A stretch of 41,911 nt of DNA, from NCBI GenBank assembly GCA_944358445.1, contig CALVRC010000013.1, forward strand, positions 1 to 41,911. The letters run 5' to 3'. Every line of letters begins with the position of its first letter. Positions within the stretch are counted from its first letter, which is position 1. Below, in pieces: positions 1-21,108 of this stretch. The position numbers were made by a program, and so were the translations under genes. Source of the DNA: an uncultured Bacilli bacterium (lineage in GTDB: Bacteria; Bacillota_I; Bacilli_A; RF39; UBA660). Below the pieces are notes generated by a model that saw only the letters and a list, made by a program, of their open reading frames with translations, searched no databases and had not been told where the DNA came from.

Positions 1-120
1 ATAAAATTTATAAATTACAAGAAGTTGTGAATTCTATTTGATTATTCATTTGTTGCACTTGACTTTTTAATTTATAAAGGCAAATATCATATAAGTTAAA
101 AAAACGTAAAACAAACACTA

Positions 121-149
121 TTGACAAAAAAAATAAAACTAATTATAAT
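121..149 (+). promoter_or_regulatory. Consensus sigma-A promoter for the first gene
   Basis: The sequence shows TTGACA at 121-126 and TATAAT at 144-149, separated by exactly 17 bases. Both hexamers match the vegetative sigma factor consensus perfectly. The coding sequence starts 27 bases downstream at 176, behind an AAAGGAA ribosome binding site. This is the strongest-looking promoter in the window and suggests high constitutive expression. Confidence 0.85.
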
Positions 150-175
150 ATTACATACTTTGAAAGGAAAAATTT

Positions 176-1003
176 ATGACACAAGATGAAATAAAATTAA
201 TTTTAGAAAATATGGATTTAGAAGTTTTAAAAACTTTGCAAGAATATTATCATGAATATTTAAAAGAAACAAACTTAGTTAATAATTTAAAAAGAAATTT
301 AGATAATTTTAAAAAAGATAGAAATGATGAAGTTAATCCTACAAAAAAGCAAATAGAAATTAAAAAGGCAATAAATACATTGAAAAGGCTTCCTAAAAAA
401 AGAAGATACCAGTTTGAAGGTACTTTAAATGAAAGTCAAAAAATAGAACATATAGAAATCGAAAAACAGCAACTAAATAAAGATATATTTGAAAATAGAA
501 TATATCCTAAAATGCTTTTTAAAAAATCAAGTAATGGACTTTATAACGCCTTAGTATTTATGATAATAAGTATTATTTTATATAATATTGGTATGTCTGT
601 TGACTTAATTGCTTTAAAAATAATAGCAGTTCTATCATCATTTCCGGCTATTGCCAACTGTGTCTCTTACGTTTGTAATGATACATTAAACTCAAATGTT
701 AAAACACATATTTCTCAAAAGAAAATAGCACAATTAATAAAAAAACTTCAAGCAGATTATATAATTGAAAAAGAAAATTCTGAAAATATGCATCTTCAAA
801 ATCAAATATTTTTAGAATCAAAAGAAGATATTTTTAAAAGAATGCTAAAAACACATCAAAATCACTTAGAAGAAATAATCGAAGAAATAAGAACAATTAT
901 AGAAAGTGATGTTCAAGAGCCGTCTCTAACAAATGAAGAGATAATAGACACACAAACATTAATAAAAAATAGTAACCAAAAAGTTCTAAAAAAGTCGTTA
1001 TAA
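176..1003 (+). CDS. Hypothetical membrane protein with flanking coiled coils
   Basis: 275 residues, not recognised as a known family. The N-terminal ~115 residues and the C-terminal ~100 residues are charged, rich in Lys and Glu, and look helical or coiled-coil. Between them, roughly residues 122-168, lie two hydrophobic segments separated by a short Asp-containing turn, predicting a hairpin in the membrane with both long arms on the same side, probably the cytoplasm. There is no signal peptide. The ATG at 176 is preceded by AAAGGAA and by a perfect promoter at 121-149; a terminator hairpin overlaps the stop codon, so it is probably monocistronic. Possible roles include scaffold or envelope functions, but nothing in the sequence decides this. 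Confidence 0.75.
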   Translation: MTQDEIKLILENMDLEVLKTLQEYYHEYLKETNLVNNLKRNLDNFKKDRNDEVNPTKKQIEIKKAINTLKRLPKKRRYQFEGTLNESQKIEHIEIEKQQLNKDIFENRIYPKMLFKKSSNGLYNALVFMIISIILYNIGMSVDLIALKIIAVLSSFPAIANCVSYVCNDTLNSNVKTHISQKKIAQLIKKLQADYIIEKENSENMHLQNQIFLESKEDIFKRMLKTHQNHLEEIIEEIRTIIESDVQEPSLTNEEIIDTQTLIKNSNQKVLKKSL

Positions 1004-1016
1004 AATAGCGACTTTT
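990..1016 (+). terminator. Terminator overlapping the stop codon
   Basis: AAAAGTCG at 990-997 pairs with CGACTTTT at 1009-1016. The loop contains the TAA stop codon of the preceding gene (1001-1003). The 3' arm ends in a short T run. Confidence 0.7.
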
Positions 1017-1103
1017 AAAATGTAAAAAAATAGGCATATTTTCTCTTAAACAAAGGGGTTTTAAAGTATTTAAATAAATGATATAATATATTAGGTGATT
1101 TAA

Positions 1104-1793
1104 GTGGAACTATTAGATGAATTAGGAATCAAGCCAAATGATATGAATCTTTATGAAACAGCTTTTTCACACACCTCATATTCTAATGAACATGGTGTAA
1201 AAAGCTATGAAAGATTAGAATTTTTAGGTGATGCAGTTTTAGAATTATTAATGAGCGATTATCTCTATCAAAGCAATAAATATAATGAAGGAGAAATGAC
1301 AAAAATAAGAGCTCATTATGTTTGTGAAACAGCTAATTATGAGTATTCTTTAAAACTCGGATTAAATAAATATTTAAAACTTGGAAAAGGTGAAGAAGAA
1401 AATGGCGGAAGATATCGTAAAGCTATCGTTTCAGATATTTTTGAATCATTTTTAGGAGCCCTTTATTTAGATCAAGGACTAGATAAAGTAAAAGAATTCT
1501 TTACCAATAAAATAGTTCCTATAATTGAAAATCATGAAGTTGATTTTTTTGATGACTACAAATCAGCTTTACAAGAATTTGTCCAAACAGGAAAAAAAAG
1601 TTTGGAGTATAAATTAGTAAGTGAAACAGGTCCATCACATAATAGACAGTTTACTGTTGAAGTAATTATTGATAATATAGTTTATGGAACTGGTAGATCA
1701 CATAGTAAAAAATCAGCCGAACAAGAGGCTGCCAAAGACGCTTTAAATAAAGCACAGAAAGGAAGTTTATTATGGGAAGAGCATATGAAGTAA
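1104..1793 (+). CDS. rnc: Ribonuclease III
   Basis: 229 residues, normal length for bacterial RNase III. This enzyme cleaves double-stranded RNA, including the 30S rRNA precursor, in the cytoplasm. The signature ERLEFLGDAVLEL is at about residues 35-48. A second acidic cluster, SDIFESFLGALYLDQG, lies near residues 110-126 and supplies the other metal-binding residues. The last ~70 residues form a double-stranded RNA-binding domain ending in KKSAEQEAAKDAL. The start is GTG at 1104, behind TAGGTGA; a TATAAT at 1082-1087 gives a very short 5' leader. The 3' end overlaps yebC by 22 bases, so the two genes are translationally coupled and probably form one operon. Confidence 0.97.
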   Translation: MELLDELGIKPNDMNLYETAFSHTSYSNEHGVKSYERLEFLGDAVLELLMSDYLYQSNKYNEGEMTKIRAHYVCETANYEYSLKLGLNKYLKLGKGEEENGGRYRKAIVSDIFESFLGALYLDQGLDKVKEFFTNKIVPIIENHEVDFFDDYKSALQEFVQTGKKSLEYKLVSETGPSHNRQFTVEVIIDNIVYGTGRSHSKKSAEQEAAKDALNKAQKGSLLWEEHMK

Positions 1794-2488
1794 GAAAAGC
1801 AAGCATTCAAAAAACAGGAGCTGCAAAAGCTAAATTATATTCAATGTACGCGAGAGAAGTATATCAAGCAGCCAAAAACGGTGGAACTGAATTAGAAGGC
1901 AATCCAACATTAAAAAGATTAGTTGAAAAAGCTAAAAAAGAACAAGTACCAAATGATATTATTAATAGAGCAATAGATAAAGTAAATAGTGGAGCAGATG
2001 AAACATATACTGAAGCTAATTATGAAATTTTTGGTCCATCTGGTTCAACTGCAATTGTTGCTTGCCTAACAGATAATGTTAATAGAAGTGTTAGTAGTAT
2101 AAGAGCAGTTATCAATAAATGCCATGTTAAAATGGGGGCTCAAGGTAGTGTAAGCTATATGTATGACCATTTATGTATAGTAAGTTTTAAAGGGCTATCT
2201 GAAGAAGAAACATTAGATGCCTTATTAGAAGCTGGATTAGATATAACAGATATTGAAAGTGAAAATGATGAAGTAATAGTTTATGGCGCCCCAAATGATT
2301 TGAATAAAATTAAAGAAGCCATTTTAGCTAAATTACCAAATGTAGAATTTGATTTAGATGAAATAACAATGCTTCCAAAAGAAAAAGTTACATTAACTGG
2401 AGAAGATAAAGAAACCTTTGAAAGAATGCTTAATCTATTAGATGAAGTTGAAGATGTTCAGCACGTATATCACAATGTAGAGCTATAA
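1772..2488 (+). CDS. yebC: YebC/PmpR family translation and regulatory protein
   Basis: 238 residues, typical length. YebC/TACO1 family members are cytoplasmic; some act as DNA-binding regulators and YebC2-type members have been linked to relief of ribosome stalling at proline-rich stretches. The N terminus MGRAYEVRK resembles the MGRxxxxR start of the family, and the segment GGTELEGNPTLKRLVEKAKK near residues 36-56 is diagnostic. The C-terminal half has the acidic Glu/Asp pattern of domains 2 and 3. The start ATG lies inside rnc behind AAAGGAAG. A terminator overlaps the stop codon, so the rnc-yebC operon ends here. The subtype (YebC1 or YebC2) is not resolved. Confidence 0.93.
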   Translation: MGRAYEVRKASIQKTGAAKAKLYSMYAREVYQAAKNGGTELEGNPTLKRLVEKAKKEQVPNDIINRAIDKVNSGADETYTEANYEIFGPSGSTAIVACLTDNVNRSVSSIRAVINKCHVKMGAQGSVSYMYDHLCIVSFKGLSEEETLDALLEAGLDITDIESENDEVIVYGAPNDLNKIKEAILAKLPNVEFDLDEITMLPKEKVTLTGEDKETFERMLNLLDEVEDVQHVYHNVEL

Positions 2489-2498
2489 AGCTCTTTTT
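2480..2498 (+). terminator. Terminator of the rnc-yebC operon
   Basis: GAGCT (2480-2484) pairs with AGCTC (2489-2493) around an ATAA loop that contains the yebC stop codon, followed by five T residues. Short but classic. Confidence 0.75.
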
Positions 2499-2604
2499 AT
2501 ATGTCTTTTTTTAGAAAAAATAACAAAATACACCCCCACCACCCCCACACTGGGGTTAATTGACAATTTTGTGTAAAGCGCTTAACTAAATAAAACCATT
2601 ATAC

Positions 2605-2634
2605 TTGTAATTTTCAGGGAGGGGGGGATATAAT
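2605..2634 (+). promoter_or_regulatory. Probable promoter with a G tract in its spacer
   Basis: TTGTAA at 2605-2610 and TATAAT at 2629-2634 are separated by 18 bases. The spacer contains GGGA followed by seven consecutive G residues (2617-2627). Homopolymer tracts in promoter spacers are known to cause phase variation in mollicutes and other bacteria by changing spacing through slippage. A second candidate -35, TTGACA at 2560-2565, lacks a good -10 at the right distance. The gene start is at 2664 behind GGGAGGAG. Confidence 0.55.
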
Positions 2635-2663
2635 ACAAATAATAAATATAGGGAGGAGCAAAC

Positions 2664-4073
2664 ATGAAAAAAAGATTAAATAGTAGCCAGCGAAATTATA
2701 TAATAATAGGCTTATGTATGATATTAGTCATAATGGGAGTAGGATATGCGGCATTTTCTAGTCAACTTAAAATATCAGGAACATCAAATATAGCAAGTAA
2801 CTTCTTAGTTAAAATAACTGATATACAAAGTAAAGTTTTAAATGGTAATGCGAGTGATGCAGAGGCACCAACACATACAGATACAACAGCAACATTTAAA
2901 ACCAATTTAGTAAGCCCAGGAGACAGTATGCAGTATGATATTACAGTAATTAATGAAGGAGATATTGATGCTGTACTTAACAGTATACAGGTAAATACTG
3001 GAAATAATGATGCTATATTATTTGAAACATATGGAATAAATGAAGGAGATGCCTTACTTAAAGGAGCAACTGATGTACTTACAGTTATAGTAAGATATGA
3101 TAGTAGTGTGACAAGGCAACCAGAAAATACAGAATCAACAATAACTGTAACATTAGATTATGGGCAATCTAGTGGAACAGCAGTGCCAGGTGGTGCAGTA
3201 ACACTTCTTGGAGGACAGTCTGTAGATGTTGTTGATAGTGGAGATGGGCTATATGCTGATGAATATGAGTTCGGAAGATATATTTATAGAGGACAAAACC
3301 CAAATAACTATATAACATTCAATGGAGAAACATGGAGAATTATAGCTAAAGAAACAGATGGAACATATAAAATAATTAGAAATGATGTTTTACCAAATCG
3401 AGCATTTGATGAAGCAAATCATCGAAGTACAGAAAATAACTCATATTGTCAAAACCCAGGATACGGTTGTGGAGTATATGCAGCTGTAGAAGGAATATTC
3501 TCGTCACCAAGTGGATCACAAAGCGGAACAATAACAGAAGACTCATCAATAAAAATATATTTAAATGATGATTATTATGTAAATAATATAAATGAAACAG
3601 CTAAAGAACAAATGACATCTCATTCATTTAATATAGGGGCAGTAGAATATTTAAATGAAAACGGAGCCGAAGCAGATAGTATAGAAAAAAATATAGCAGG
3701 AGAAAAAATGTACCAATGGACAGGTAACGTAGGACTAGCCAACGCAAGTGATATCTTAAGAGCAAGTACTAATTCATTATGTACTTCTGCAACTACATCA
3801 TTTAATGATACTGATGCATGTAATAGTAATTACTTATTAGATAGTGGAAGTACAAGTTCGTTATCTTATTGGGTAATAAACGCCACTTCTCGCGAGTCTG
3901 GTGGCGGTTCGTCTAACGCCTGGTATGGTTATGTAGATGACTCGTATATGGCAGTGAGCATTTTTTCTGCGTACCTTTCTACTTCCGCTCCCCGCCCAGT
4001 AGTCTTTTTGAAATCTGATACTACTTTGTCAGGTAGTGGAACTAAAGAAAATCCATTTGAGATAATTGCATAG
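2664..4073 (+). CDS. Exported surface protein with a DGR-type variable C terminus
   Basis: 469 residues. Residues 1-30 are a signal or anchor segment ending in GVGYAAFSSQLKISG, the pattern of TasA/camelysin-like (SipW-type) substrates. Residues ~35-170 form a beta-rich domain of the kind seen in secreted fibre proteins. Residues ~205-465 resemble the exported DUF6273-like or C-type-lectin-like domains (GETWRIIAKETDGTYKII, later APRPVVFLKSD, then GSGTKENPFEI). Codons 402-449 switch to about 50% GC with few adenines, unlike the rest of the gene; this segment is described separately as a candidate variable region. The start ATG has a strong GGGAGGAG site. The promoter spacer contains a G tract, so expression may vary. 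The ligand is unknown. Confidence 0.8.
   Translation: MKKRLNSSQRNYIIIGLCMILVIMGVGYAAFSSQLKISGTSNIASNFLVKITDIQSKVLNGNASDAEAPTHTDTTATFKTNLVSPGDSMQYDITVINEGDIDAVLNSIQVNTGNNDAILFETYGINEGDALLKGATDVLTVIVRYDSSVTRQPENTESTITVTLDYGQSSGTAVPGGAVTLLGGQSVDVVDSGDGLYADEYEFGRYIYRGQNPNNYITFNGETWRIIAKETDGTYKIIRNDVLPNRAFDEANHRSTENNSYCQNPGYGCGVYAAVEGIFSSPSGSQSGTITEDSSIKIYLNDDYYVNNINETAKEQMTSHSFNIGAVEYLNENGAEADSIEKNIAGEKMYQWTGNVGLANASDILRASTNSLCTSATTSFNDTDACNSNYLLDSGSTSSLSYWVINATSRESGGGSSNAWYGYVDDSYMAVSIFSAYLSTSAPRPVVFLKSDTTLSGSGTKENPFEIIA
3867..4011 (+). other. Candidate DGR variable region (VR)
   Basis: By hand count, codons 406-449 (3879-4010) contain 67 G or C in 132 bases and only 20 A, whereas the sequence just upstream is adenine-rich. 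32 of 44 codons end in C or T (NNY), against 17 of 45 in an upstream stretch of the same gene. Adenine-specific mutagenesis of AAY codons in a template repeat yields NNY codons depleted in A, the hallmark of a diversity-generating retroelement target. The segment sits at the 3' end of a surface-exposed domain and finishes in the conserved PRPVVFL, the normal position for a VR. No reverse transcriptase and no template repeat are visible in the window, so the retroelement would have to act from elsewhere. Confidence 0.6.
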
Positions 4074-4104
4074 AAAAATAAGGTTATTTTTAAACCTTAT
4101 TTTT
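4074..4104. terminator. Bidirectional terminator between convergent genes
   Basis: AAAAATAAGGTT (4074-4085) pairs with AACCTTATTTTT (4093-4104), a 12-bp stem with A and T runs on opposite sides, so it can terminate on both strands. It includes the stop codon (4097-4099) of the minus-strand femAB gene. Confidence 0.85.
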
Positions 4105-5344
4105 TAAATACTCCAGTAATTCCAAAGGAATTTTTATAAACAAAATATCTAGGAGAATTAGTAATTAATTCAAAATCACCCGCATATTCAATAACATTCG
4201 CATGAAAATTAAGTTTAAATTCATTTAATCCCTTATATTTATTGTTAACTTTATTAATATTAGCCACACCACCTAAATATAATTTCTTATATCCAAGCTT
4301 CGCATATCTACCCATTAGTTTCCAAATCATCAATTGTTTAGCCCCAAAATGTTTATACTTTTTATCATAACCGTCAATCGCAAAATAAACATCATCTTGC
4401 CATTTAATAACTAAAGCAGAAGAAGTAATAATTCCATCAGGATAGTTTTTCAAGTATTCAGTTGCCTCAGCTAACTGGTTACGGTACTTAACAACCTTCT
4501 TATCAACCTCTAATTTTTCACTAATAAGTTTATCTGAATTTCCTTTTTGATTCATTAATTTTTGACTAAGTTCAGTACTTTTTTTATAATACTCATTATA
4601 TTGTTTTTGTGTATACTGTAAATAATCAGTTGTATCTAATTTACTATAGTAAAAATCAATTAAATTATCTTTACCAAAAAACCTATATAAATCCTCAAAA
4701 TATTGCAAACCTCTAGGATATTTTCCTTTAGTTTGCTCATATAAATATTTTAAATCATCAATATCACCATGATACACCTTAATGCCATCACGAACAGCTT
4801 TTCTAATTTTATTACGGCAACTTCTATCAATATTACCAAACAATTTAATATAATCTAAATCTAAATTAATATAAGCTTCAAATCTAGGTTTTAATGCCTC
4901 AAAATAATTATTATAGCCTAAATGAAAATACCCAAGCTTTTTAAGTCTATTAAAAGTTTCATCATATAAATCATTATTAGTAATTGCATGTCCAGCACTG
5001 TTATATACTTTTCTTATAATCATTGGATTAATTTTAATTGCCACAATATCCTTTTTTCCTAAATATTTTTTAATCAATTTTGTAAATGTTTTTACTAGCT
5101 CATCGTCATTATAATCAATTAAATAGCCTCTAGGCGCTAAAGCATATTTAAATCCATTAATCTTATATACCAAAATCAAACTAGCTGCTTTAAGTACATT
5201 GCCATCCATAAGTCCAACAAACATAGAACTATAATTTTCTTCATTCATTGTAAAAGCATAATAAGGAGTTTGATATATAGATCCAGGTTTAAATAATTTG
5301 GCAAATTCTAAAAATTCCGAATTTGAAAGAGATTTTATCTGCAT
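4097..5344 (-). CDS. FemAB-family peptidoglycan bridge aminoacyltransferase
   Basis: 415 residues, the normal length of FemA/FemX/FmhB proteins. These cytoplasmic enzymes use aminoacyl-tRNA to add amino acids to the lipid II stem peptide. Two GNAT-like halves are visible (about residues 1-165, and 166-240 plus 300-415), interrupted at residues ~240-300 by a charged coiled-coil arm, as in FemA. Family-type segments include FKYALAPRGYLIDY near residue 70, SCRNKIRKAVRDGIKVYHG near 175-195, and ITSSALVI near 305. The start ATG follows AGGAGG. It implies a cross-bridged cell wall, which argues against a wall-less mollicute. The amino acid added cannot be predicted. Confidence 0.92.
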   Translation of the reverse strand: MQIKSLSNSEFLEFAKLFKPGSIYQTPYYAFTMNEENYSSMFVGLMDGNVLKAASLILVYKINGFKYALAPRGYLIDYNDDELVKTFTKLIKKYLGKKDIVAIKINPMIIRKVYNSAGHAITNNDLYDETFNRLKKLGYFHLGYNNYFEALKPRFEAYINLDLDYIKLFGNIDRSCRNKIRKAVRDGIKVYHGDIDDLKYLYEQTKGKYPRGLQYFEDLYRFFGKDNLIDFYYSKLDTTDYLQYTQKQYNEYYKKSTELSQKLMNQKGNSDKLISEKLEVDKKVVKYRNQLAEATEYLKNYPDGIITSSALVIKWQDDVYFAIDGYDKKYKHFGAKQLMIWKLMGRYAKLGYKKLYLGGVANINKVNNKYKGLNEFKLNFHANVIEYAGDFELITNSPRYFVYKNSFGITGVFKK

Positions 5345-5421
5345 ATAAACGCCTCCTACCTATCTAATTATACCAAAATAATGCCATAATATATAGTTTT
5401 TATCTTAAAAAAATAAAATAA

Positions 5422-5447
5422 AAGCATCAGAAATATATCCAATGCTT
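5422..5447 (-). terminator. Terminator of the DUF1540 gene
   Basis: On the minus strand AAGCAT and ATGCTT form a hairpin around a 14-base loop, followed by a T-rich tail (complement of the A-rich 5407-5421). The stem includes part of the stop codon of the gene. Confidence 0.55.
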
Positions 5448-5607
5448 AATTCAATTCTGTTTTAACATAATTATCACACATTGTAGACTCTTTTTCATCA
5501 TTAGCTCTGCAACACGCCACTTTAATCTGATTTAACATGCAAGCGTCCTTCATAACATCACAATGTTTACAATCATAAACAGTGCAGTTAATTTTTTGAT
5601 TATTCAT
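5446..5607 (-). CDS. Small cysteine-rich DUF1540-type protein
   Basis: 53 residues, found by reading the gap between two larger genes. The start ATG at 5607 follows an excellent GGAGGTAA site. The protein begins MNNQKINCTVYDCKHCD and contains seven cysteines, spaced as in DUF1540 proteins: CxVxxC, then a Cys before an LNxIKV segment, a CC pair, and STMCDNY near the C terminus. DUF1540 proteins are small, probably metal-binding and of unknown function. It is divergent from the downstream dehydratase-like operon, with 90 bases between the two starts, and has its own terminator. The cysteine pattern and ribosome binding site make coding very likely; the function is not known. Confidence 0.85.
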   Translation of the reverse strand: MNNQKINCTVYDCKHCDVMKDACMLNQIKVACCRANDEKESTMCDNYVKTELN

Positions 5608-5697
5608 AAAAAATTACCTCCATTAATATCCTTTACTAAAAACACATAATTATTCATAAAAAATAAATAACCTTAATATATTTGTAATGGTGATATT

Positions 5698-6600
5698 ATG
5701 AACAGAGTCGGTATTCCTCGTAGTCTGTTTTACTATTATTATAAAGATTTATGGATTGATTTTTTTGATAGTTTAAATATCCCGTATATTATAAGTCCTA
5801 ACACTAATAAAAATATCATGAGTAGGGGAGAAACCGTCGCTAATGATGAAATGTGTTTATCTTTAAAAAATTATTTAGGACACATAGATTATCTAAAAGA
5901 CAAATGTGATTACATATTAGTTCCAAGAATAAGAAATTTTAAAAATAACAACCAAACATGTACAAATTTTTGGGCTATTTATGATATTGTAAAAAATTTA
6001 TTTAATGTAAATATTTTAAATTATAATATCGATTTAGAAAAGAAACAAACTCTAAAAAAAGGTCTATTTAAAATAGGGAAAGAATTAAACAAAAATAATC
6101 ATCAAATAAAAAAAGCCTATAAATATGCCATTACCAAAGAAAAAAAGAGAATAAAGCAAAATCATATAATAAACCAAAACAAACTAAAAAGTAAAAAGAA
6201 AAAAATTTTAATAGTAGGTCATCCATATAACCTATATGATGAACTAATAGGCAAAGATATCATAAAATATTTAATAAAAAATAATATTGAAATTATTTAT
6301 TCAGATAAATTTGATTCAAAAATTACAAATCCTTTAAGTAAAAAAATATCCAAAGACCTTTATTTCAAATATAGTAAAGACAATTTAGGCGCTATAGCTT
6401 ACAGTGAAAAAGATATAAATGGAGTTATTTTTATATCATCATTTCCATGTGCACCAGATAGTTTAGCTAACGAACTAGCCATGAGAAAAATTAAACTACC
6501 TTATTTAAATTTAGTTATAGATAATAATTCATCATTTACTGGCCTAGAAACTAGATTAGAAAGTTTTTTAGATATGATAGGAGGAAAATTAAATGACTAA
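5698..6600 (+). CDS. DUF2229-type acyl-CoA dehydratase activase-related protein
   Basis: 300 residues. It resembles the DUF2229 segment that accompanies 2-hydroxyacyl-CoA dehydratase activators: it begins IPRSLFYYYYKDLWIDFF and continues with the SPNTNKNIMSRGETVANDEMC and GHIDYL blocks. Conserved cysteines at about residues 56, 95 and 250 (in DEMC, QTC and FPCAPDS) are candidate Fe-S ligands. In many Bacillota this domain is fused in a single giant protein with the next two gene products; here it is separate. It overlaps the next gene by 8 bases. Only a weak GGTGAT precedes the ATG. The substrate is unknown; a role in an ATP-dependent low-potential electron transfer system is an inference from the family. 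Confidence 0.8.
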   Translation: MNRVGIPRSLFYYYYKDLWIDFFDSLNIPYIISPNTNKNIMSRGETVANDEMCLSLKNYLGHIDYLKDKCDYILVPRIRNFKNNNQTCTNFWAIYDIVKNLFNVNILNYNIDLEKKQTLKKGLFKIGKELNKNNHQIKKAYKYAITKEKKRIKQNHIINQNKLKSKKKKILIVGHPYNLYDELIGKDIIKYLIKNNIEIIYSDKFDSKITNPLSKKISKDLYFKYSKDNLGAIAYSEKDINGVIFISSFPCAPDSLANELAMRKIKLPYLNLVIDNNSSFTGLETRLESFLDMIGGKLND

Positions 6601-7657
6601 AATAGCCTTTCCCCATATGGGTGACTATCACGTTCCAGCAAACTATCTATTATCACATATCTTTCCAAACACAGAAGTAATAAAAGCTCCTAAAATAACT
6701 TCAAAAACCATTGAACTAGGTACTGAGCACTCTCCAGAATTCGTCTGTACACCATTTAAATACACCTTAGGGACGATGATAGAATGCTTAGAAAAAGGAG
6801 CTGATACTTTAATCCAAATGGGTGGTGGGTGTAGGTATGGTTATTATAGTGAACTTCAAGATAAAATACTAAAAGATATAGGATATAACTGTAAAGTGAT
6901 TAATCTGGTAACTGAAGGAAAAACAAACATAAAAAGAATAAATAACTTATTAAAAAGTATAGAACCAAAATATTCTAAAATTAAAGCTTTATATTATGGG
7001 TTTATTACATTTAAAATGGTTAAATATATGGATAAGATAGATGATTATATTAGAGAAAATATAGGATTTGAATTAAAAAAAGGATCATTTGAAAGTTTAA
7101 AAGAAGAAATGTTAATTGCCTTCACCCATATAAAAAATTATAAAGATTTAAAAAAAACATATAAAAGATATTTAGATAAATTACACAAAATTAAAGTCCA
7201 TAAACCAGATAATAGAATTAAAATAGGCATAATAGGAGAGTTATATACAATCATGGAACCTTTTTCCAATTATTTTTTAGAAAAAGAGCTAGCTAAACAT
7301 CATATAGAAATAAAAAGGTTTACAAATGTTCATTACTTATTATTTGAAAAATCTCATAAATATAAAAAATATAAAAAATATGCTAAAGAGTATTTCAAGT
7401 ATAATATGGGAGCTGACGCTTCAGATAATATAGCTAGGTGCAAATACTTATGTAGGGAAGACTATGACGGAATCATTCATATAAAGTCATCCTTCTGCAC
7501 TCCCGAAATAGGAGCCATGCCAATTATTAATAAAATTGCGAATACTTATCAAAAACCGGTTCTGTTTTTCAGCTTTGATTCAGCTACCTCAGAAACTGGT
7601 ATAAAGACAAGATTAGAAGCATTCTACGATATGTTAGAAATGAGGAAAGATAAATGA
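6593..7657 (+). CDS. 2-hydroxyacyl-CoA dehydratase-like (HgdB/double-cubane-type) protein
   Basis: 354 residues. It resembles the dehydratase component, or double-cubane-cluster proteins, of the HgdA/HgdB superfamily. Seen in the sequence: SPEFVCTPFKYTLG near residue 56, MGGGCRYGYYSE near 76, ARCKYLCREDYDG near 283, and SSFCTPEIGAMP near 302. The cysteines would hold an Fe-S cluster. The ending FFSFDSATSETGIKTRLEAF is shared with the end of the preceding gene (VIDNNSSFTGLETRLESF), so the two proteins are related in fold. It overlaps both neighbours (8 bases upstream, 4 downstream), indicating a tightly coupled operon. Catalytic dehydration is not assured; the set may instead be an ATP-driven reductase of unknown substrate. 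Confidence 0.82.
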   Translation: MTKIAFPHMGDYHVPANYLLSHIFPNTEVIKAPKITSKTIELGTEHSPEFVCTPFKYTLGTMIECLEKGADTLIQMGGGCRYGYYSELQDKILKDIGYNCKVINLVTEGKTNIKRINNLLKSIEPKYSKIKALYYGFITFKMVKYMDKIDDYIRENIGFELKKGSFESLKEEMLIAFTHIKNYKDLKKTYKRYLDKLHKIKVHKPDNRIKIGIIGELYTIMEPFSNYFLEKELAKHHIEIKRFTNVHYLLFEKSHKYKKYKKYAKEYFKYNMGADASDNIARCKYLCREDYDGIIHIKSSFCTPEIGAMPIINKIANTYQKPVLFFSFDSATSETGIKTRLEAFYDMLEMRKDK

Positions 7658-8589
7658 AAGATTGTTATTTAGGAGTAGATATTGGATCTATATCCACTAA
7701 AGGCGTTATAATTGATGATGATAATAACATAATTACATCCACGTATATTTGGACTGAAGGAAATCCTACAGAAGCTGTAAAAAAATTATTGAATGTGTTA
7801 AAGAAAAATTTACCAAAAGATTATGTGATAAAAGGTATAGGTACAACAGGAAGTGCTAGAAAACTAATTGGTTTGATGCTAAAAGCTAATATAGTAAAAA
7901 ATGAAATAACCGCCCATGCCATTGGCACGTTAACTTTTTATCCAAACATTAGAACAATATTAGAAATAGGTGGACAAGACTCTAAAATAATATTAATTAA
8001 AAATGGCATAATAACTAACTATGCCATGAATACTTTGTGTGCAGCAGGAACAGGTTCATTTTTATCAAGTCAAGCCAAAAGATTAGGTATTAATGTAGAA
8101 GAATTTGGTGATTATGCTTTGAAATCTAAAAATCCAGTTAAAATAGCTGCTAGATGTACTGTTTTTGCTGAATCAGACTTAGTGCATAAAGCTCAGGTCG
8201 GTTATCCCAAAGAAGATATCATTGCCGGGCTTTGTAAAAGTGTAGTATTAAATTATTTAAACAATGTTGGTAAAGGTAAAAAAATAATTCCACCTATCAT
8301 TTTCCAAGGTGGAGTTTCTAAAAATAAAGGAGTCGTTAAATATTTTAAAGAAATATTAAAAGAAGACATTATTGTCGATGAAAATAGTCATCTAATGGGA
8401 GCTATAGGTATAGCAGTTTTAGCTAGAAGAAATAAAACAGGAAACACTTATTCTTTAGAAATGAGTAATCTAAAATTTATAACTAAAGCTTTTGAATGTC
8501 ATAAATGTCCAAATACTTGTGAACTGCTTAAAATATATAGAAATGATGAGTTAGTTGATTCATGGGGTAGTAAATGTGGTAAATATTAA
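7654..8589 (+). CDS. Acyl-CoA dehydratase activase (BadF/BcrA/HgdC ATPase family)
   Basis: 311 residues; an ASKHA-fold ATPase that drives electrons into the partner dehydratase or double-cubane protein. The phosphate-binding motif DIGSISTKG is at residues 9-17, with a second motif GIGTTGSAR at 61-69 and EIGGQDSK at 104-111. Cys129 in NTLCAAGTGSF and Cys168 in AARCTVFAESD are the two cysteines that in this family bridge the [4Fe-4S] cluster between two subunits. A C-terminal extension carries four more cysteines (CHKC, NTC, KCGKY), typical of the long form. It follows the dehydratase-like gene with a 4-base overlap and is the last gene of the operon. Confidence 0.9.
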   Translation: MKDCYLGVDIGSISTKGVIIDDDNNIITSTYIWTEGNPTEAVKKLLNVLKKNLPKDYVIKGIGTTGSARKLIGLMLKANIVKNEITAHAIGTLTFYPNIRTILEIGGQDSKIILIKNGIITNYAMNTLCAAGTGSFLSSQAKRLGINVEEFGDYALKSKNPVKIAARCTVFAESDLVHKAQVGYPKEDIIAGLCKSVVLNYLNNVGKGKKIIPPIIFQGGVSKNKGVVKYFKEILKEDIIVDENSHLMGAIGIAVLARRNKTGNTYSLEMSNLKFITKAFECHKCPNTCELLKIYRNDELVDSWGSKCGKY

Positions 8590-8607
8590 AATCATTTAAA
8601 AAATATT

Positions 8608-9612
8608 TTAATTTCGTCCCCATTTTTTATTAAACTTTTCTACTTGATTTAAACCGTTAGAATCATATTTTTTAACTCTTAATTTTGGCTTTACATCTTT
8701 TTCATAAAGCCTTTCATGGTCCAAATCAAAATTAATTAAAGTTTCATTGACTGTATACATTTTATCATTAAATATAAATTGTTCGAAGCTACCAGAATTA
8801 ATATAACCATCATTATCAAAAAATAAATTCATTCTTAATGCACCTGGATATTTATGTTTCCCCAAAGTTAAATTACTTAAAGTAGGAATATTTACTAAAA
8901 ACCCTGAAGCGTCATCAGTAAAAGCCATTTTGTGCTTATGTCCTTCTAAAACCATTTTTCCATTAATTGGTTCAAAAGAATAATCAGGTATATTATGCCT
9001 TACAAATAATTGATCATTTTCAGTGTTAATAATTCCAAGACCATAACCTAAAGGAATCAAATCACTCCTCGCACTTTCTAAAGCTTTTTTAATGTCAATC
9101 CCAGATTTAAATAAACTAAAATCATGATTACCTAAACATATCAAATTTAAAATACTATCATCAAAAGGATAATTCTTAATTGTATATTCTAATTGCTTCA
9201 AAGGATCGCTAATTTCTTGCTTTTCTCGATTAAAAGATCCATCAACTAAATCGCCGGCATTTATAATTATATGAATATTACATTCCTTACAGTAATCATA
9301 AACCATATCTAAATAATTCATGCAAGAAAGACTATTACCATAGTGGGTATCACTAATAAGCATAGCTGATAGACTATAGTGATTCTTAACTCTAAGGTCA
9401 ATAGTATTAGTTTTCATAAACTCAGGAAATTTTTTAAAATAATAATTAATATTTCCATCATCATAAATAACCTTTCTTAAAAGCCATCCGTCATTCTTTA
9501 GTGATTTTACTTTTTTATAAACTTCTGAAATAGGTATATTTAATTCCGAAGAAATTTCATTCAATGTTTTTTCTTCTTTTAGTTTATTTAAAACTTCTAT
9601 ATTTTCTAACAT
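8608..9612 (-). CDS. HTH-metallophosphoesterase, paralogue 2
   Basis: 334 residues. Residues ~1-60 look like a winged helix-turn-helix (TLNEISSELNIPISEVYKKVKSL). Residues ~80-270 are a calcineurin-like metallophosphoesterase: D88 and H90 in SDTHYGN, GDLVDG at 120-125, GNHD at 161-164, and GHKH at 225-228, so all metal ligands are present. This domain hydrolyses phosphodiesters or phosphomonoesters with two metals. It is a tandem paralogue of the gene just upstream, separated by 11 bases, and shares an operon with it. The start ATG at 9612 follows AAGGGAG. The DNA-binding-like N terminus suggests action on nucleic acid or ligand-responsive regulation, but that is inference. Confidence 0.8.
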   Translation of the reverse strand: MLENIEVLNKLKEEKTLNEISSELNIPISEVYKKVKSLKNDGWLLRKVIYDDGNINYYFKKFPEFMKTNTIDLRVKNHYSLSAMLISDTHYGNSLSCMNYLDMVYDYCKECNIHIIINAGDLVDGSFNREKQEISDPLKQLEYTIKNYPFDDSILNLICLGNHDFSLFKSGIDIKKALESARSDLIPLGYGLGIINTENDQLFVRHNIPDYSFEPINGKMVLEGHKHKMAFTDDASGFLVNIPTLSNLTLGKHKYPGALRMNLFFDNDGYINSGSFEQFIFNDKMYTVNETLINFDLDHERLYEKDVKPKLRVKKYDSNGLNQVEKFNKKWGRN

Positions 9613-9623
9613 ATAAAACTCCC

Positions 9624-10547
9624 TTATTTTAGTATTAATTTTTTTTCATCATAATTTTCGTGTTTTAGAAAAAATTCTAAATTAAACTCACTAAAAACTT
9701 CAAAATTGCTTTTCACTCCAATTTGTTTGAAAAAAGCGCTATGAATAAACCCATTACCAAATAATAATTCCATTTCTAACATTCCAGGATTTTCCTGATT
9801 ACCAAAGCATAAATCACTAAGTGGAGGTACATTTACAAAATAATTATTTCTATCTATTTTTACTTTCATTTTATGATGATGGCCTTCTAAAATAAGCTTA
9901 TTAGGAATAGGCTTAAAACTAATTCCGTTTAAAGGATGATATAAAGCAAATTGATCTCTTTCAATATTAATTAAAGAAAAACCATATCCCGCACTTATTA
10001 AATCCTGTCTATGACTAGAAATAGCCATAGATATATCCCTTCCGAATTCGTTAGATACATAATCATGATTACCAAAACAAATAAAATTTAAAATATAATT
10101 ATCATGAGGATAATTGTTAATTACACGTTCTATTTGTTCATCAATATTAGAAATAGTTTGATTACCTCTAGTAAAATTACCATCAATTATATCACCACAG
10201 TTTAAAATAACATGAATATTATGATTTCTCGCATAATCATAAGCTTTATATAAATAACTTAAATTTTCTAAAACATTACCTATATGAATATCTGAAATAA
10301 CTAAAGCTTTAAACTTAGAACTATCATATAATTTGATATTTATAGTATGCTTATTCAAATCATTTTCAAACTCATATTTAATCTCACCATTATCATAATA
10401 TATTGGTCTAATAAAATAACCTTCATTTTTAAGTTTAGTAATTTTTTGATGAATCTGTCTAGGACTAAGCCAAAGCTCGTATGCCATTTCATTTAACGTG
10501 TGCCCCTTATCAATCATCTCAAATATTTCCATTTCTTTTTCTGTCAT
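9624..10547 (-). CDS. HTH-metallophosphoesterase, paralogue 1
   Basis: 307 residues from the ATG at 10547, chosen because AGAGGGA lies 6 bases upstream; an in-frame ATG 36 bases earlier (10583) has no ribosome binding site. The N-terminal ~55 residues form a winged HTH (HTLNEMAYELWLSPRQIHQK). The phosphoesterase domain carries SDIHIGN, GDIIDG, GNHD and GHHHK, all metal-binding motifs intact. It is clearly homologous along its length to the next gene (ADGLVDG/GDIIDG, NYPHDN/NYPFDD, shared LEGH(H/K)HKM), so the pair arose by tandem duplication. Nothing nearby identifies the substrate. Confidence 0.8.
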   Translation of the reverse strand: MTEKEMEIFEMIDKGHTLNEMAYELWLSPRQIHQKITKLKNEGYFIRPIYYDNGEIKYEFENDLNKHTINIKLYDSSKFKALVISDIHIGNVLENLSYLYKAYDYARNHNIHVILNCGDIIDGNFTRGNQTISNIDEQIERVINNYPHDNYILNFICFGNHDYVSNEFGRDISMAISSHRQDLISAGYGFSLINIERDQFALYHPLNGISFKPIPNKLILEGHHHKMKVKIDRNNYFVNVPPLSDLCFGNQENPGMLEMELLFGNGFIHSAFFKQIGVKSNFEVFSEFNLEFFLKHENYDEKKLILK

Positions 10548-10683
10548 ATGATCCCTCTTAACTCCATTGTAACATTTATACAAATAAAAAAATAGTAACT
10601 ATTAAAAATTTATTTCAGAAACGTAGATTTTTATTTGAAATTCCGTTTTATGGCAAAAAGCTGAAATAAGTTTGAATATAGTA

Positions 10684-10751
10684 CAATAAAATGTAAAATC
10701 AAGGGCGAACGACAGTGAGTTTATAAAACCCTTGATTTTTACATTTTATTG
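10684..10751. repeat. Long inverted repeat (about 22-bp arms)
   Basis: The arms at 10684-10705 and 10729-10751 are complementary except for one extra A in the right arm. The 23-base loop contains GGCGAACGACAGTGAG-type sequence that stands out in this AT-rich context. It could be a strong bidirectional terminator or the terminus of a MITE-like element. Confidence 0.75.
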
Positions 10752-10766
10752 ATTATAATACTTAAT

Positions 10767-10790
10767 ACAAACAAAGCTAGCTTTGTTTGT
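10767..10790. repeat. 24-bp perfect palindrome
   Basis: The 12-base half-site ACAAACAAAGCT is followed directly by its exact reverse complement. With no loop and no T tail it looks more like a protein-binding site or a recombination remnant than a terminator. Confidence 0.75.
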
Positions 10791-11058
10791 TATCTATAAA
10801 TATATACATCTTATGATTATTCAATTGCTTTAATAATATTAAAAAAACAGAAATCAGTATGAAAAACGGAAATAACCTCTGTAATTTTGTCATGCAAAAA
10901 TTTAAGTAATAGTAATTAATATTAGGCAAAATTAAAAGACTTATTTCCACTTTTACATCCCAAAGCAGCAATAAGTCTTGTAAATTAAATGGTTCTTCAT
11001 AAACCTGCATTTAGTCTAAAAATTTGCGAATTTATTTCAGAAATGTATAGAAAAATAT

Positions 11059-11087
11059 TTGACAATCATCATAAACTAGTGTATAAG
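11059..11087 (+). promoter_or_regulatory. topA promoter
   Basis: TTGACA at 11059-11064 and TATAAG at 11082-11087, with 17 bases between them. The transcript would begin about 20 bases before the ATG at 11116, which follows AAGGAAGTGA. Confidence 0.75.
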
Positions 11088-11115
11088 TTATATTAGTCAA
11101 AAAGGAAGTGAACTA

Positions 11116-13149
11116 ATGGGCAAAGATTTAGTGATTGTGGAGTCTCCAACAAAAGTAAAATCAATTAGTAAATATTTAGGAAATAACTACGTTGTATCAT
11201 CTAGTAAAGGGCATATTAGAGATTTATCAACTAAAGGTAAATATGGTTTAGGAGTTGACATTGAAAATCATTTCAAACCAGATTATAAAACAATAAAAGG
11301 CAAAAAAAGTGTTATTGATGAACTAAAAAAAGAAGCTAAGAAAGCCGGCAAAGTATATCTCGCAACCGACCACGATAGAGAAGGAGAAGCTATTGCTTGG
11401 CACCTTTATGATTGCTTAAATTTGAAAGACAAACCTTATAGTAGAGTTACCTTTAACGAGATTACTAAAAATGCTATCTTAGAAGCGATGAAACATGAAG
11501 GTAAAATTAATCAAAATCTAGTAAACAGTCAAGAGACAAGAAGAATACTAGATAGAATTATCGGTTTTAGATTAAGTAAACTAATTCAGTCTAAAACAGA
11601 CGGATCATCAGCTGGTAGAGTTCAAAGTGTTGCTTTAAAATTGATTGTTGATAGGGAAAGAGAAATAAATAATTTTAACCCAGAAGAATATTGGACTATC
11701 GAAGCCGACTTCAAAGATTTTAAAGCCGATTTATTTGCTTATAATCATAAAAAAATAGAAATTAAAACAGAAAGTGAAGCAAACACCATCTTAGATAAAT
11801 TAACAAAAGCTTTTGAAATTGAAAGTGTAGATAAAAAACAAAGAAATAAACAATCAAAACCACCATTTACAACAAGTACCCTCCAACAAACCGCTTCAAA
11901 TAGATTAAGATTTTCATCTAGAAAAACAATGAGCGTTGCCCAAAAACTATATGAAGGTATAGATTTAGCAAGTGAAACAGTTGGTTTAATCACTTATATG
12001 CGTACCGATTCAATTAGACTTTCTAACGAATTTGTATCAGAAACATATAAATTTATTGAAAACAAATATGGAAAAGAATATACTGGACCAGTTAAAATAA
12101 GTAAAAAAACAGAAAACGTTCAAGATGCTCACGAAGCAATCAGACCAACAAGTATTGAAAGAACACCGGAAAGTGTTAAACCATATTTAACTGATGACGA
12201 ATTTAAATTATATAGATTAATTTATTATAGAGCCTTAGCCAGCATCATGGCTCCAGCTAAAGTTGAAGGAACAACCGTTATATTAAATAATAATTATTAT
12301 AACTTCAAAGCTACTGGTAGTGTTATTATCTTTGATGGTTATTTAAAAGTATATAGTGATTACGAGGAAACAAAAGATACCATTTTACCACCTTTTGATA
12401 CATATAACTCAAAAGTAATTGTTTCAAATGATATCATTAAAGAACAACATTTTACTGAGCCTCCAGCTAGATATACTGAAGCAAAACTTATTAAAGAAAT
12501 GGATGAATTAGGTATAGGTAGACCTAGTACATATGCCACTATAATCGACAATATTAAAAATAGGGGATATGTTAATCTAGTAGAACGTAAATTTGTTCCA
12601 ACAGATATTGGCTTTGAAGTAAATGATAAACTTCAAGAATGTTTTAATCATATAATAAATGTAAAATATACTGCTAATATGGAAACAGATTTAGATAAAA
12701 TAGCAGAAGGCAAAGAAGTGTGGTATCAGGTCTTGGAAGATTTTTATAAAGAATTCGAACCAGCCGTTAAAGAAGCTTTTGATAAGCTTCCTAAAAAAGA
12801 AGCAGAACAAACAGGCGAAATGTGCCCAGAATGTGGCCATCCATTAGTAATTAGAAAAGGTAAATATGGACAGTTTGTTGCTTGCAGTAATTTTCCTGAG
12901 TGTAAGTATATAAAACAAGAACCTAAAGAAGAAATCGTTATTTGTGATTGCCCAAATTGTGATGGAAAAATAATTGAAAAGAAAACAAGAAAAGGAAAAA
13001 TCTTCTATGGATGCAATAATTATCCAAAATGTAAAACAGCGTATTGGGATAAACCAACTGGTGAAAAATGTCCAGACTGTAATGAAATGTTAGTAGAAAA
13101 GAAAAACATTATCAAATGTTCAAAATGTGATTATAAAAGAGATTTATGA
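11116..13149 (+). CDS. topA: DNA topoisomerase I (type IA)
   Basis: 677 residues, the usual size for Bacillota. It relaxes negative supercoils by cutting one strand through a 5'-phosphotyrosine. The N-terminal Toprim domain shows IVESPTKVKSI (residues 6-16) and the acidic DHDREGEA near residue 90. The SAGRVQSVALK block is near 165-176. The catalytic tyrosine is Y294 in LITYMRTDS. At the C terminus are three four-cysteine zinc ribbons beginning CPEC, CPNC and CPDC, the last shortened. The start is well supported by ribosome binding site and promoter. It ends in ATGA, overlapping the next gene by 4 bases, so the two are translationally coupled. Confidence 0.98.
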   Translation: MGKDLVIVESPTKVKSISKYLGNNYVVSSSKGHIRDLSTKGKYGLGVDIENHFKPDYKTIKGKKSVIDELKKEAKKAGKVYLATDHDREGEAIAWHLYDCLNLKDKPYSRVTFNEITKNAILEAMKHEGKINQNLVNSQETRRILDRIIGFRLSKLIQSKTDGSSAGRVQSVALKLIVDREREINNFNPEEYWTIEADFKDFKADLFAYNHKKIEIKTESEANTILDKLTKAFEIESVDKKQRNKQSKPPFTTSTLQQTASNRLRFSSRKTMSVAQKLYEGIDLASETVGLITYMRTDSIRLSNEFVSETYKFIENKYGKEYTGPVKISKKTENVQDAHEAIRPTSIERTPESVKPYLTDDEFKLYRLIYYRALASIMAPAKVEGTTVILNNNYYNFKATGSVIIFDGYLKVYSDYEETKDTILPPFDTYNSKVIVSNDIIKEQHFTEPPARYTEAKLIKEMDELGIGRPSTYATIIDNIKNRGYVNLVERKFVPTDIGFEVNDKLQECFNHIINVKYTANMETDLDKIAEGKEVWYQVLEDFYKEFEPAVKEAFDKLPKKEAEQTGEMCPECGHPLVIRKGKYGQFVACSNFPECKYIKQEPKEEIVICDCPNCDGKIIEKKTRKGKIFYGCNNYPKCKTAYWDKPTGEKCPDCNEMLVEKKNIIKCSKCDYKRDL

Positions 13150-18912: not shown

Positions 18913-21108
18913 TTATAAATAATAACGATACTTTTCAGCATCAAAAAAAGTAATAATCGTTTTATTACTTTCACTTACAGTCTTAATTTCCACATTAATC
19001 ATAGGTAGTAGTTGTTCTAGTATTTTATTTTCTTCATACATATTAATTTTTCTATCTAAAACTATTTTATTGTTACTAGCTTTTACTTTTAATAAATCCT
19101 CAATATTGGATATAACAGAAGATAAATTAGGTATGTTATTTTCAATAGGCATAATATCACTGTCATCAGAACTATCTTCGTCATTATTTTGATTTTCATA
19201 GTTCGCTCTCATTTGTTCAACAGTATAATAATTTTGAGTATTTTTCTTAATCATTTTTATTTGTCTAGTAATTGGATTAAAATTATAATTTTTAAATATA
19301 TCACTATATAAATAAGTATCTCTAAAAATAGGATTAGAAACAGTTGGGAAAATAATAGTTTTATATTTTAAAGCGATTATTTCATTAGCTGTTAAAAGTT
19401 CCCTACCGAGTAGAGAAGTAGTCTTATTAGCACCTACTTTAAAGGTGTCAGTACTTTGGCTTATTGACTGGGTTTCAATAGTAGATTTACCAAGTTTACG
19501 ACTAATAACATCAGCACAATCAATACTGTTTGTTTTTAGATAAGTGAGTGCTGAATTATCTTGAATAATAGATGATGATTCTTTCCCATAAACTTGGTCT
19601 AGTTGAGCAAAAGACTGAATAAAGAATTGAAAACGCATATTTCTTGATCTAGCAACAGATACGATCGTTTCAATATCACTCAACGGTGGACAGTTTGCGA
19701 ACTCATCTAATATCCACTCAATTTTACGTGGTAATTTTCCATTATTATGGGGCATATTAGCGATTTTAGTTAGTTCTTTATAAAGAATACCTACAATGAT
19801 AGTAACGAGCTGATAATAGCTCTTATCCTCGTCAGGAACGATAATATAAAGTACACTAGGTTTATCAACTAAAGAAGATATTTCAAAATCACTAGAGCTA
19901 GTAATGTTTTCTACATTAAGGTCATCAAATATTTGCATTTTTTCGCCGAACACTGCCGTAATTGATTTATATGTATTTTCACTCGCCGATAAAATAGAAG
20001 TAAGATAATCTTTTGAAATAGTACCATAATCTCTAGTATTTAAGTTTCTCTGTAAATAGATTTGATTTTCTTTTAATAAAGAGGAGTTTTGAAACTTTTT
20101 AATACTAGAAACATTTATCTTATTTTCTGGTATCAAACCACTTTCGTAATCTTCTAAAAAAATACCAGCAATACCTTTGAAAAGATTTTTAGATGAGTTT
20201 AACCAAAACGGATCTTTTGTTTCTTTTTCAGCGAATATTAAATCAGCTAAATTATTAATAAGTCTAGTAGCTTCAGCTTGACTAGAAGAACTTTGATTTT
20301 GATATTGTTTTATATAATTTAGAAGTTCTGAATTATTAATAGATTTATACTCATAATCAACTTTTTCTTTTAATAAATCAAAAAAATCTTCGCTTTCTAG
20401 TTTATCTTTGATAGCATCAATGTTATTTAAAATATACTCAATGATATAGTCATCTAGTTTATAAGTTACTTTAATATTATTTTTATATTGTTCATTTACA
20501 ATAATTTGTTCAAAATCAATTTGTAAAATATGAAATAAATAACAGATAGAATAAAATAACTTTTCTTCATATATACAATGAATTTTCCACTCGTCGATAA
20601 TTGGTTGCATAATATTTATATGCGTAGATAAATGTGGATTTCTAAAATCAATAGTAATAACATTTTCATACCCATTATCTTTAAATATACTAGAAGTTTT
20701 AGAAAATATTTCGCCTTTAGGATCAGTGATAATTAAACTTTCTTTTTCTTTAGCTGTTGCAAACATAATGCACTCTGAAAGTACGACGGTTGCTGATTTA
20801 CCTGATCCAGTACTACCAATTAATAACCAGTGGGGGCTTATATTATCAAAGTAAACATATTCAAATTGATTATTTTTCTTTTCAAAATAAACAGGAAAGC
20901 CAGCTTCTTTGATATTATAAATATTTTCTTTTTTAAAAGTTTTAGCAATTTCTTTTTTAGTAGCAAACTTTGATGAGCCATACTCATTTTTATTTTTTAC
21001 TTTTCTTTGATTAAGTCTAGGCTGTATTAACACTATAAATATTATTGCACCTATTATCAGAAATAAAATTAAGACATAAAAAAAAGACAGGTTATTGTCT
21101 AGTATCAT
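18913..21108 (-). CDS. virD4: VirD4/TraG-type conjugative coupling ATPase
   Basis: 731 residues. Type IV coupling proteins bring the relaxase-DNA complex to the secretion channel at the inner membrane. Residues ~8-28 form a single clear transmembrane segment. The Walker A motif GSTGSGKS is at 98-105, followed by LIITDPKGEIF. A Walker B-type EWILDEFANCPPLSDIE lies near residue 465, then VARSRNMRFQFFIQSFAQLDQVYG, a characteristic VirD4/TraG block. The C-terminal ~100 residues are acidic and variable, plausible for relaxase recognition. The ribosome binding site is weak (TTGGAT). The 98-base gap upstream contains nothing obvious. Confidence 0.96.
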   Translation of the reverse strand: MILDNNLSFFYVLILFLIIGAIIFIVLIQPRLNQRKVKNKNEYGSSKFATKKEIAKTFKKENIYNIKEAGFPVYFEKKNNQFEYVYFDNISPHWLLIGSTGSGKSATVVLSECIMFATAKEKESLIITDPKGEIFSKTSSIFKDNGYENVITIDFRNPHLSTHINIMQPIIDEWKIHCIYEEKLFYSICYLFHILQIDFEQIIVNEQYKNNIKVTYKLDDYIIEYILNNIDAIKDKLESEDFFDLLKEKVDYEYKSINNSELLNYIKQYQNQSSSSQAEATRLINNLADLIFAEKETKDPFWLNSSKNLFKGIAGIFLEDYESGLIPENKINVSSIKKFQNSSLLKENQIYLQRNLNTRDYGTISKDYLTSILSASENTYKSITAVFGEKMQIFDDLNVENITSSSDFEISSLVDKPSVLYIIVPDEDKSYYQLVTIIVGILYKELTKIANMPHNNGKLPRKIEWILDEFANCPPLSDIETIVSVARSRNMRFQFFIQSFAQLDQVYGKESSSIIQDNSALTYLKTNSIDCADVISRKLGKSTIETQSISQSTDTFKVGANKTTSLLGRELLTANEIIALKYKTIIFPTVSNPIFRDTYLYSDIFKNYNFNPITRQIKMIKKNTQNYYTVEQMRANYENQNNDEDSSDDSDIMPIENNIPNLSSVISNIEDLLKVKASNNKIVLDRKINMYEENKILEQLLPMINVEIKTVSESNKTIITFFDAEKYRYYL

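Follow-up and report, generated by a model that had tools for sequence, protein, structure and literature searches.

Positions 3879-3999 of the window, the whole 41,911-nucleotide stretch of DNA analysed here, are in all likelihood a genuine variable region (VR) of a diversity-generating retroelement (DGR), one of seven such tails scattered over the genome and probably orphaned by the loss of its own DGR. That a DGR made the tail is hardly in doubt; that this DGR has been lost rather than left unassembled is probable. The window is contig C13 of a gut-bacterium assembly (1.43 Mb in 40 contigs, 90.9% complete).

The compositional anomaly of the target-gene tail is real. Codons 406-449 (3879-4010) contain 20 A in 132 bases, have a GC content of 50.8% and end in C or T in 32 of 44 cases, exactly as counted in an earlier note on this DNA (GC about 51%). 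For codons 361-405 upstream (46 A in 135 bases, GC 29.6%) that note had given 17 of 45 pyrimidine-ending codons, and our recount gives 26/45. Among 10,686 overlapping 44-codon segments from the 43 ORFs of the window, a content of 20 A or fewer is unique to codons 406-449, and the six segments with a GC content of at least 50% all lie in the target gene. A pyrimidine-rich third position alone is unremarkable, segments with at least 32 such codons occurring in 15 of the 43 ORFs. From these letters the earlier note had deduced a probable DGR variable region at 3867-4011, with an abrupt change of composition at about 3879, in the C-terminal end of a lectin- or DUF6273-like domain of an exported protein and with neither reverse transcriptase (RT) nor template repeat (TR) in the window. 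We agree in the main: alignment to the TR of a relative sets the VR limits at 3879-3999, with mismatches concentrated at template A, and no RT or TR was found in the window.

The VR ends on a GC-rich motif, CGCTCCCCGCCCAG, which also closes the TR of the relative G014 and reads GCTCCCCGCCCAG in that of G009 (Table 1). In the BPP-1 DGR the GC-rich VR end is directly followed by a stem-loop. An inverted repeat occupies this position in the window; it was found in only 14 of 30 tails, which rules it out as a conserved stem-loop, and it is probably non-functional. The target gene has a YebC gene and a FemAB gene as neighbours, one on each side. Elsewhere the window carries conjugative-element genes and, at the contig end, a tetracycline-resistance gene.

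Table 1. Features of the window and of the DGRs on G014:C66 and C19.
Sequence	Feature	Position	Strand	Basis or remark
Window	Target gene, 469 aa, with hydrophobic N-terminus seen by eye (export signal or anchor)	2664..4073	+	ORF and translation
Window	DUF6273-like domain	3216..4070	+	Pfam matches of the family, structure model, structural matches to phage proteins
Window	VR, probable	3879..3999	+	Alignment to the G014 TR; A-poor block
Window	GC-rich VR 3' end CGCTCCCCGCCCAG, IMH-like (putative role as IMH)	3986..3999	+	Common to G014 and G009 TRs
Window	Inverted repeat AGTAGT...ACTACT	3998-4003 and 4020-4025	+	Just 3' of the GC-rich VR end
Window	Conjugative-element genes	17303-41819	-	
Window	Coupling protein	18913-21108	-	
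Window	TraG-like ATPase	33879-36260	-	
Window	Tetracycline-resistance ribosomal protection protein, TetM/TetW/TetO/TetS family	39897-41819	-	1233.5 bits, cut-off 1100; contig end
G014:C66 (L065)	Target gene, homologous tail type	2-940		5' end cut at contig start
G014:C66 (L065)	TR	1094-1217		
G014:C66 (L065)	MutS-domain-I-like ORF	1498-1908		Pfam MutS_I, 24.7 bits, cut-off 20.6
G014:C66 (L065)	Avd-like ORF			bAvd 33.7 bits, under the cut-off of 40
G014:C66 (L065)	RT	2221-3318		
C19 (L019)	DGR: target gene, three tandem TR-like repeats, Avd ORF, 218-aa ORF with hydrophobic N-terminus, RT			
C19 (L019)	TR-like repeats	5559-5665, ~5718-5830, 6086-6192		

The 3' end of the target gene matches six more places in its own genome, on contigs C5, C18, C9, C15, C2 and C4 (69-73% identity), the C2 member being a 100-codon fragment. 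Aligned, the seven tails show a strongly variable block of ~120 bases followed by the GC-rich end and a VVFLK-coding sequence. On C18 and C9 a 271-base tract covering the VR and the gene end is identical within a 1,034-base alignment at 90.8% identity and appears conversion-like, and the target genes of C19 and C2 are 99.9% identical across 2.9 kb, their identical VRs included, which suggests a recent duplication. Used as a genus-wide query, a guessed template, made from the tail alignment by placing A at the variable positions, matched 15 of 44 genomes at E<=0.01, the window genome included and some only weakly, in places with two matches a few hundred bases apart on one contig. A tblastx comparison of window positions 1-12000 with the relatives' loci revealed no shared neighbourhood of the window gene among the matches listed.

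Among the relatives, the congeneric G014 carries the clearest template of the window class, next to a homologous target gene (Table 1). Its TR and VR differ by 26 mismatches, 23 of them at template A, so that 23/37 A but only 3/87 other bases have changed. On G009:C13 the TR and a MutS-domain-I-like ORF occur with an Avd-like ORF that is truncated; no RT was matched there, and the TR/VR pair is less clean (14/28 A versus 12/96 others changed). The TR-like pieces of G001:C134 and G013:C39 are either chimeric or truncated, and neither genome yielded an RT match. The exact TR pattern occurs on three contigs of the genome_contigs collection, the same as those of G014, G001 and G009, and had 0 matches in viral_contigs. 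An RT match was obtained in 33 of the 44 genus genomes, several of the DGRs being broken. By eye, a small MutS-domain-I-like ORF beside Avd is also discernible in the DGRs of L066, L132, L135-L139 and L141, and is seemingly absent from that of C19. L138 (G023:C23) and L137 (G032:C5) each have a DGR RT that is interrupted directly behind GLPIG by an insert of ~3.5 kb with three tyrosine-recombinase-like ORFs (by eye), whose proteins are identical at both ends. A further ORF of ~210-220 aa with a hydrophobic N-terminus lies beside the DGR or its target in L001:650-1306 (C19), L130 (C2) and L141:5626-6249 (G021); the C19 copy has no Pfam family above cut-off.

The G014 TR, another species' template, served as a ruler for the window-genome tails because the cognate TR of the window genome has never been seen. 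Against it, the window tail has changed at 26/36 template A and at 23/85 other bases (p 4.7e-6). The share of non-A changes exceeds that of the true G014 pair (3/87), and these 23 changes imply that another TR made the tail or that the tail has drifted. Comparisons among tails drew on a set of 30, restricted to those ORFs of the relatives' or own loci that fit a motif; this leaves out L048, a clear tail ending in ALRPVV, and short matches in G005 and G015, and the entropy runs also omit L027, the tail of which is identical to that of L026. For the window genome, which has six distinct tails, mean column entropy is 1.23 bits at the 36 template-A columns and 0.51-0.57 at those of C, G and T (p 5e-5, the permutation floor); in 29 genus tails the values are 1.58 and 0.66-0.77. 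The contrast in the window genome holds at codon position 1 alone (1.33 versus 0.45) and at codon position 2 alone (1.19 versus 0.51), both with p 1e-4, again the floor. Each of the seven window-genome tails, taken singly, has changed more at template A of the G014 ruler (p at most 6.6e-3), as have 27 of the 30 genus tails at p<0.05, uncorrected and for tails that are not independent, the misses being L040, L060 and L061.

Measured against the G009 TR instead, only 15 of the 30 tails reach p<0.05. The C4 tail is A-directed with both rulers and has fewer non-A mismatches against the G009 TR (18/96) than against the G014 TR (25/87), so that at least two TRs of the window class have probably acted. 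Furthermore, with the identical C18/C9 pair excluded, the tails of the window genome differ more from each other at non-A VR columns (0.16-0.36) than over 330 bases upstream (0.06-0.24); therefore, a single shared TR cannot account for all of the variation.

Ordinary hypervariability without a DGR, be it through gene conversion, selection for diversity or the horizontal acquisition of a tail whose codon usage differs, would be in keeping with the many paralogues (31 matching stretches in the window genome, some being halves of one gene), the conversion-like tract and the abrupt change in composition. It does not, however, predict that variation at both codon position 1 and codon position 2 is tied to the A of another species' template, or that a homologous gene has a TR-Avd-RT cassette as its neighbour, and we regard it as very improbable. 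As the variation is tied to template A, codon usage or horizontal transfer is rejected as the whole cause.

The earlier note had also taken the window tail for a remote target of a DGR elsewhere in the genome. One half of this forecast is borne out: the genome contains a single DGR RT, on C19, together with Avd and TRs. The other half, that this DGR targets the tail at present, lacks support, its templates being of another class. The C19 RT has an open frame with a YMDD motif, and its best solved match is 8ub7_A (E 2.6e-27), which we take to be the BPP-1 enzyme; the Avd ORF reaches 44.9 bits with Pfam bAvd (cut-off 40) and had 0 matches in a PDB sequence search. At the 11 of 107 positions where TR3 and the local VR disagree, the template base is always A. 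Since no second DGR RT was found and its local pair is A-directed, the C19 element might be supposed to diversify the window VR from one of its three TRs, but these encode a different tail, FNN..SSGEL..GYGVRPIS, the first two did not retrieve the window when used as queries, and a scan of C19 with A as wildcard yielded no convincing partner for the window VR. Contradicted by tail class, TR search and wildcard scan, this origin has next to no probability. Low-stringency BLAST of the relatives' loci against C19 returned long, mostly AT-rich noise among the matches listed.

Each of the C19 TR-like repeats (L019:5559-6192) is preceded by a conserved GGGATTAATCTAATTTGTG-like element, and a 96% copy of TR1 is joined on C2 to the 3' end of a target gene. 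The window genome also has tails of a third class, SP....VFNV....GVSPAVYL, at L159 (C2:15338-16033), L162 (C24) and L163 (C10); a related TR occurs in G019:C62. Compared with this TR, the C2:15338 tail looks A-directed (19/42 versus 20/90), and the C24 and C10 tails, which have a 994-base identical tract in common, are unconvincing in this respect (27/48 versus 43/101 each).

The 1.43 Mb of the 90.9% complete assembly were searched for a template matching the window tail without yielding a TR of that class. Because the genome yielded no matching template, the window VR is probably left over from a machine still present in a close relative. Relatives have a DGR or a remnant between aspS and an acetyltransferase plus thymidylate kinase gene (genes named by eye): an RT remnant in G020; a target, TR, MutS-domain-I-like ORF and RT in G019; and, assigned by the genes after them, the DGRs of G014 and G009. 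On C4 of the window genome, aspS is followed within ~50 bases by the homologue of the post-RT sequence of G020 and G019, contiguous and with no DGR. A second site, flanked by phosphatase-like and mraY-like genes, is occupied by a DGR in G021 and is empty and contiguous on C9, and a third DGR site was seen in G025. The window genome moreover has no good match to the MutS-domain-I-like ORF (best E 0.0135).

The main rival to loss is that the genome does contain the cognate TR, perhaps together with an RT of its own, in a part missing from the assembly, so that the window VR would be a live remote target, possibly of the C19 RT and Avd acting in trans. The missing ~9% of the genome counts in its favour and against loss, as do the 40 contigs of the assembly and the fact that the relatives' DGR contigs are often short or end near the DGR, C66 of G014 comprising 5,437 bases and beginning inside the target gene. 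The intact C19 RT frame would fit as well, and remote targets are known from Treponema denticola (available text of PMC4891356). However, the two known DGR sites are contiguous and empty, there is a single RT, and the MutS-domain-I-like ORF has no good counterpart; in addition, the VRs of the C18/C9 and C19/C2 pairs have not been rewritten since these pairs arose, because the tract or VR is identical within each pair, which argues against live targets. We judge this reading rather unlikely. Loss is favoured by the lack of a cognate TR, the one RT, the poor MutS-domain-I-like match, the two empty sites and the broken-down DGRs of relatives; given 90.9% completeness, and a close look at two of the three DGR sites, it is not proven.

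On the reading that the DGR was lost, an ancestor would have possessed one or more DGRs with TRs of the window class. Copying of TR RNA by the RT would have been error-prone opposite A, and mutagenic retrohoming of the resulting cDNA would have rewritten the tail VRs. DGRs of this class would since have disappeared from the genome, the tails staying behind as frozen variants, of which at least one pair may have been homogenised through ordinary recombination, and the DGR that survives on C19 has templates of another class.

The diversified protein is a putative ligand-binding surface protein. Pfam DUF6273 is matched by 21 of 27 aligned family members; the whole window protein itself gave nothing above cut-off in Pfam, NCBIfam or PHROGs. 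Its domain was modelled with a pLDDT of 88.5 and a pTM of 0.90, and a structural search of viral proteins returned six matches below E 0.001, of which two, the top match among them, are named DUF6273. In the PDB, Foldseek returned a single match below E 0.001, the Thomasclavelia ramosa IgA peptidase 9qa6; the accessible part of a paper on an IgA peptidase of this type names its N-terminal domain DUF6273, and a published DALI search, as excerpted, likened DUF6273-like domains to C-type lectins (PMC10743442). No tblastn match to the window gene family was obtained in 50,697 phage records.

Both leftover targets and DUF6273 targets of DGRs have been described, and the window tail is an instructive further case, remote and most likely orphaned. 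According to the available text of Nimkulrat et al. 2016 (PMC4891356), T. denticola isolates have two to seven target genes, many of them remote, and targets persist in isolates without RT and TR, where they differ from the TRs of other isolates chiefly at A and are described by the authors as likely leftovers. The window genome resembles this situation in its several targets, many remote and probably left behind with no matching TR, but the T. denticola targets are, in that text, FGE-sulfatase-type lectin proteins, whereas here they are DUF6273-like proteins of gut Bacilli, and another DGR class is still present. Excerpts on Faecalibacterium prophages (PMC11792537) describe DUF6273 DGR targets with the VR at the C-terminus of this domain, and those on gut-phage tentaclins (PMC10743442) a DUF6273 domain with a C-type-lectin-like fold; the domain is the same, yet theirs are phage proteins, whereas the family described here is chromosomal, with targets far from any RT. 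Several VRs were counted in 271 of 948 DGRs (PMC6642488, in the portion available).

The C19 DGR resembles that of BPP-1 in its RT, the bAvd ORF, the GC-rich shared 3' end and the A-directed changes, but is set apart by its additional 218-aa ORF and its tandem array of three TR-like repeats; further differences from BPP-1 are the MutS-domain-I-like ORF of the relatives and the spread of targets over the chromosome. A MutS-like accessory gene is known from the DGR literature; our literature search brought up no paper evidently devoted to it, nor one joining Coprosoma with 'diversity-generating', and the matches listed for DGR together with Mollicutes, RF39 or Bacilli contained no mention of DGRs. 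A 2026 reconstitution in E. coli, as far as its accessible text goes, deleted mutS to help preserve DGR substitutions.

These results show that a remote or orphan VR can be detected from the composition of a single gene and then confirmed with the template of a relative. We tentatively envisage, as a possibility that is itself rather doubtful, that DGRs of this genus come and go at recurrent sites, that tails outlive their machines and that the MutS-domain-I-like ORF protects the mutated heteroduplex. If so, this ORF would interfere with mismatch repair, and the heteroduplex at the VR would thereby be protected. The genome, with three kinds of tails and one surviving machine, would be a record of successive DGR classes, and each lost DGR would leave behind a stock of DUF6273-like surface proteins, frozen with different mutations and later reshuffled by gene conversion. 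In so DGR-rich a genus, one could measure how DGRs are acquired and lost and what becomes of variable proteins once they are abandoned.
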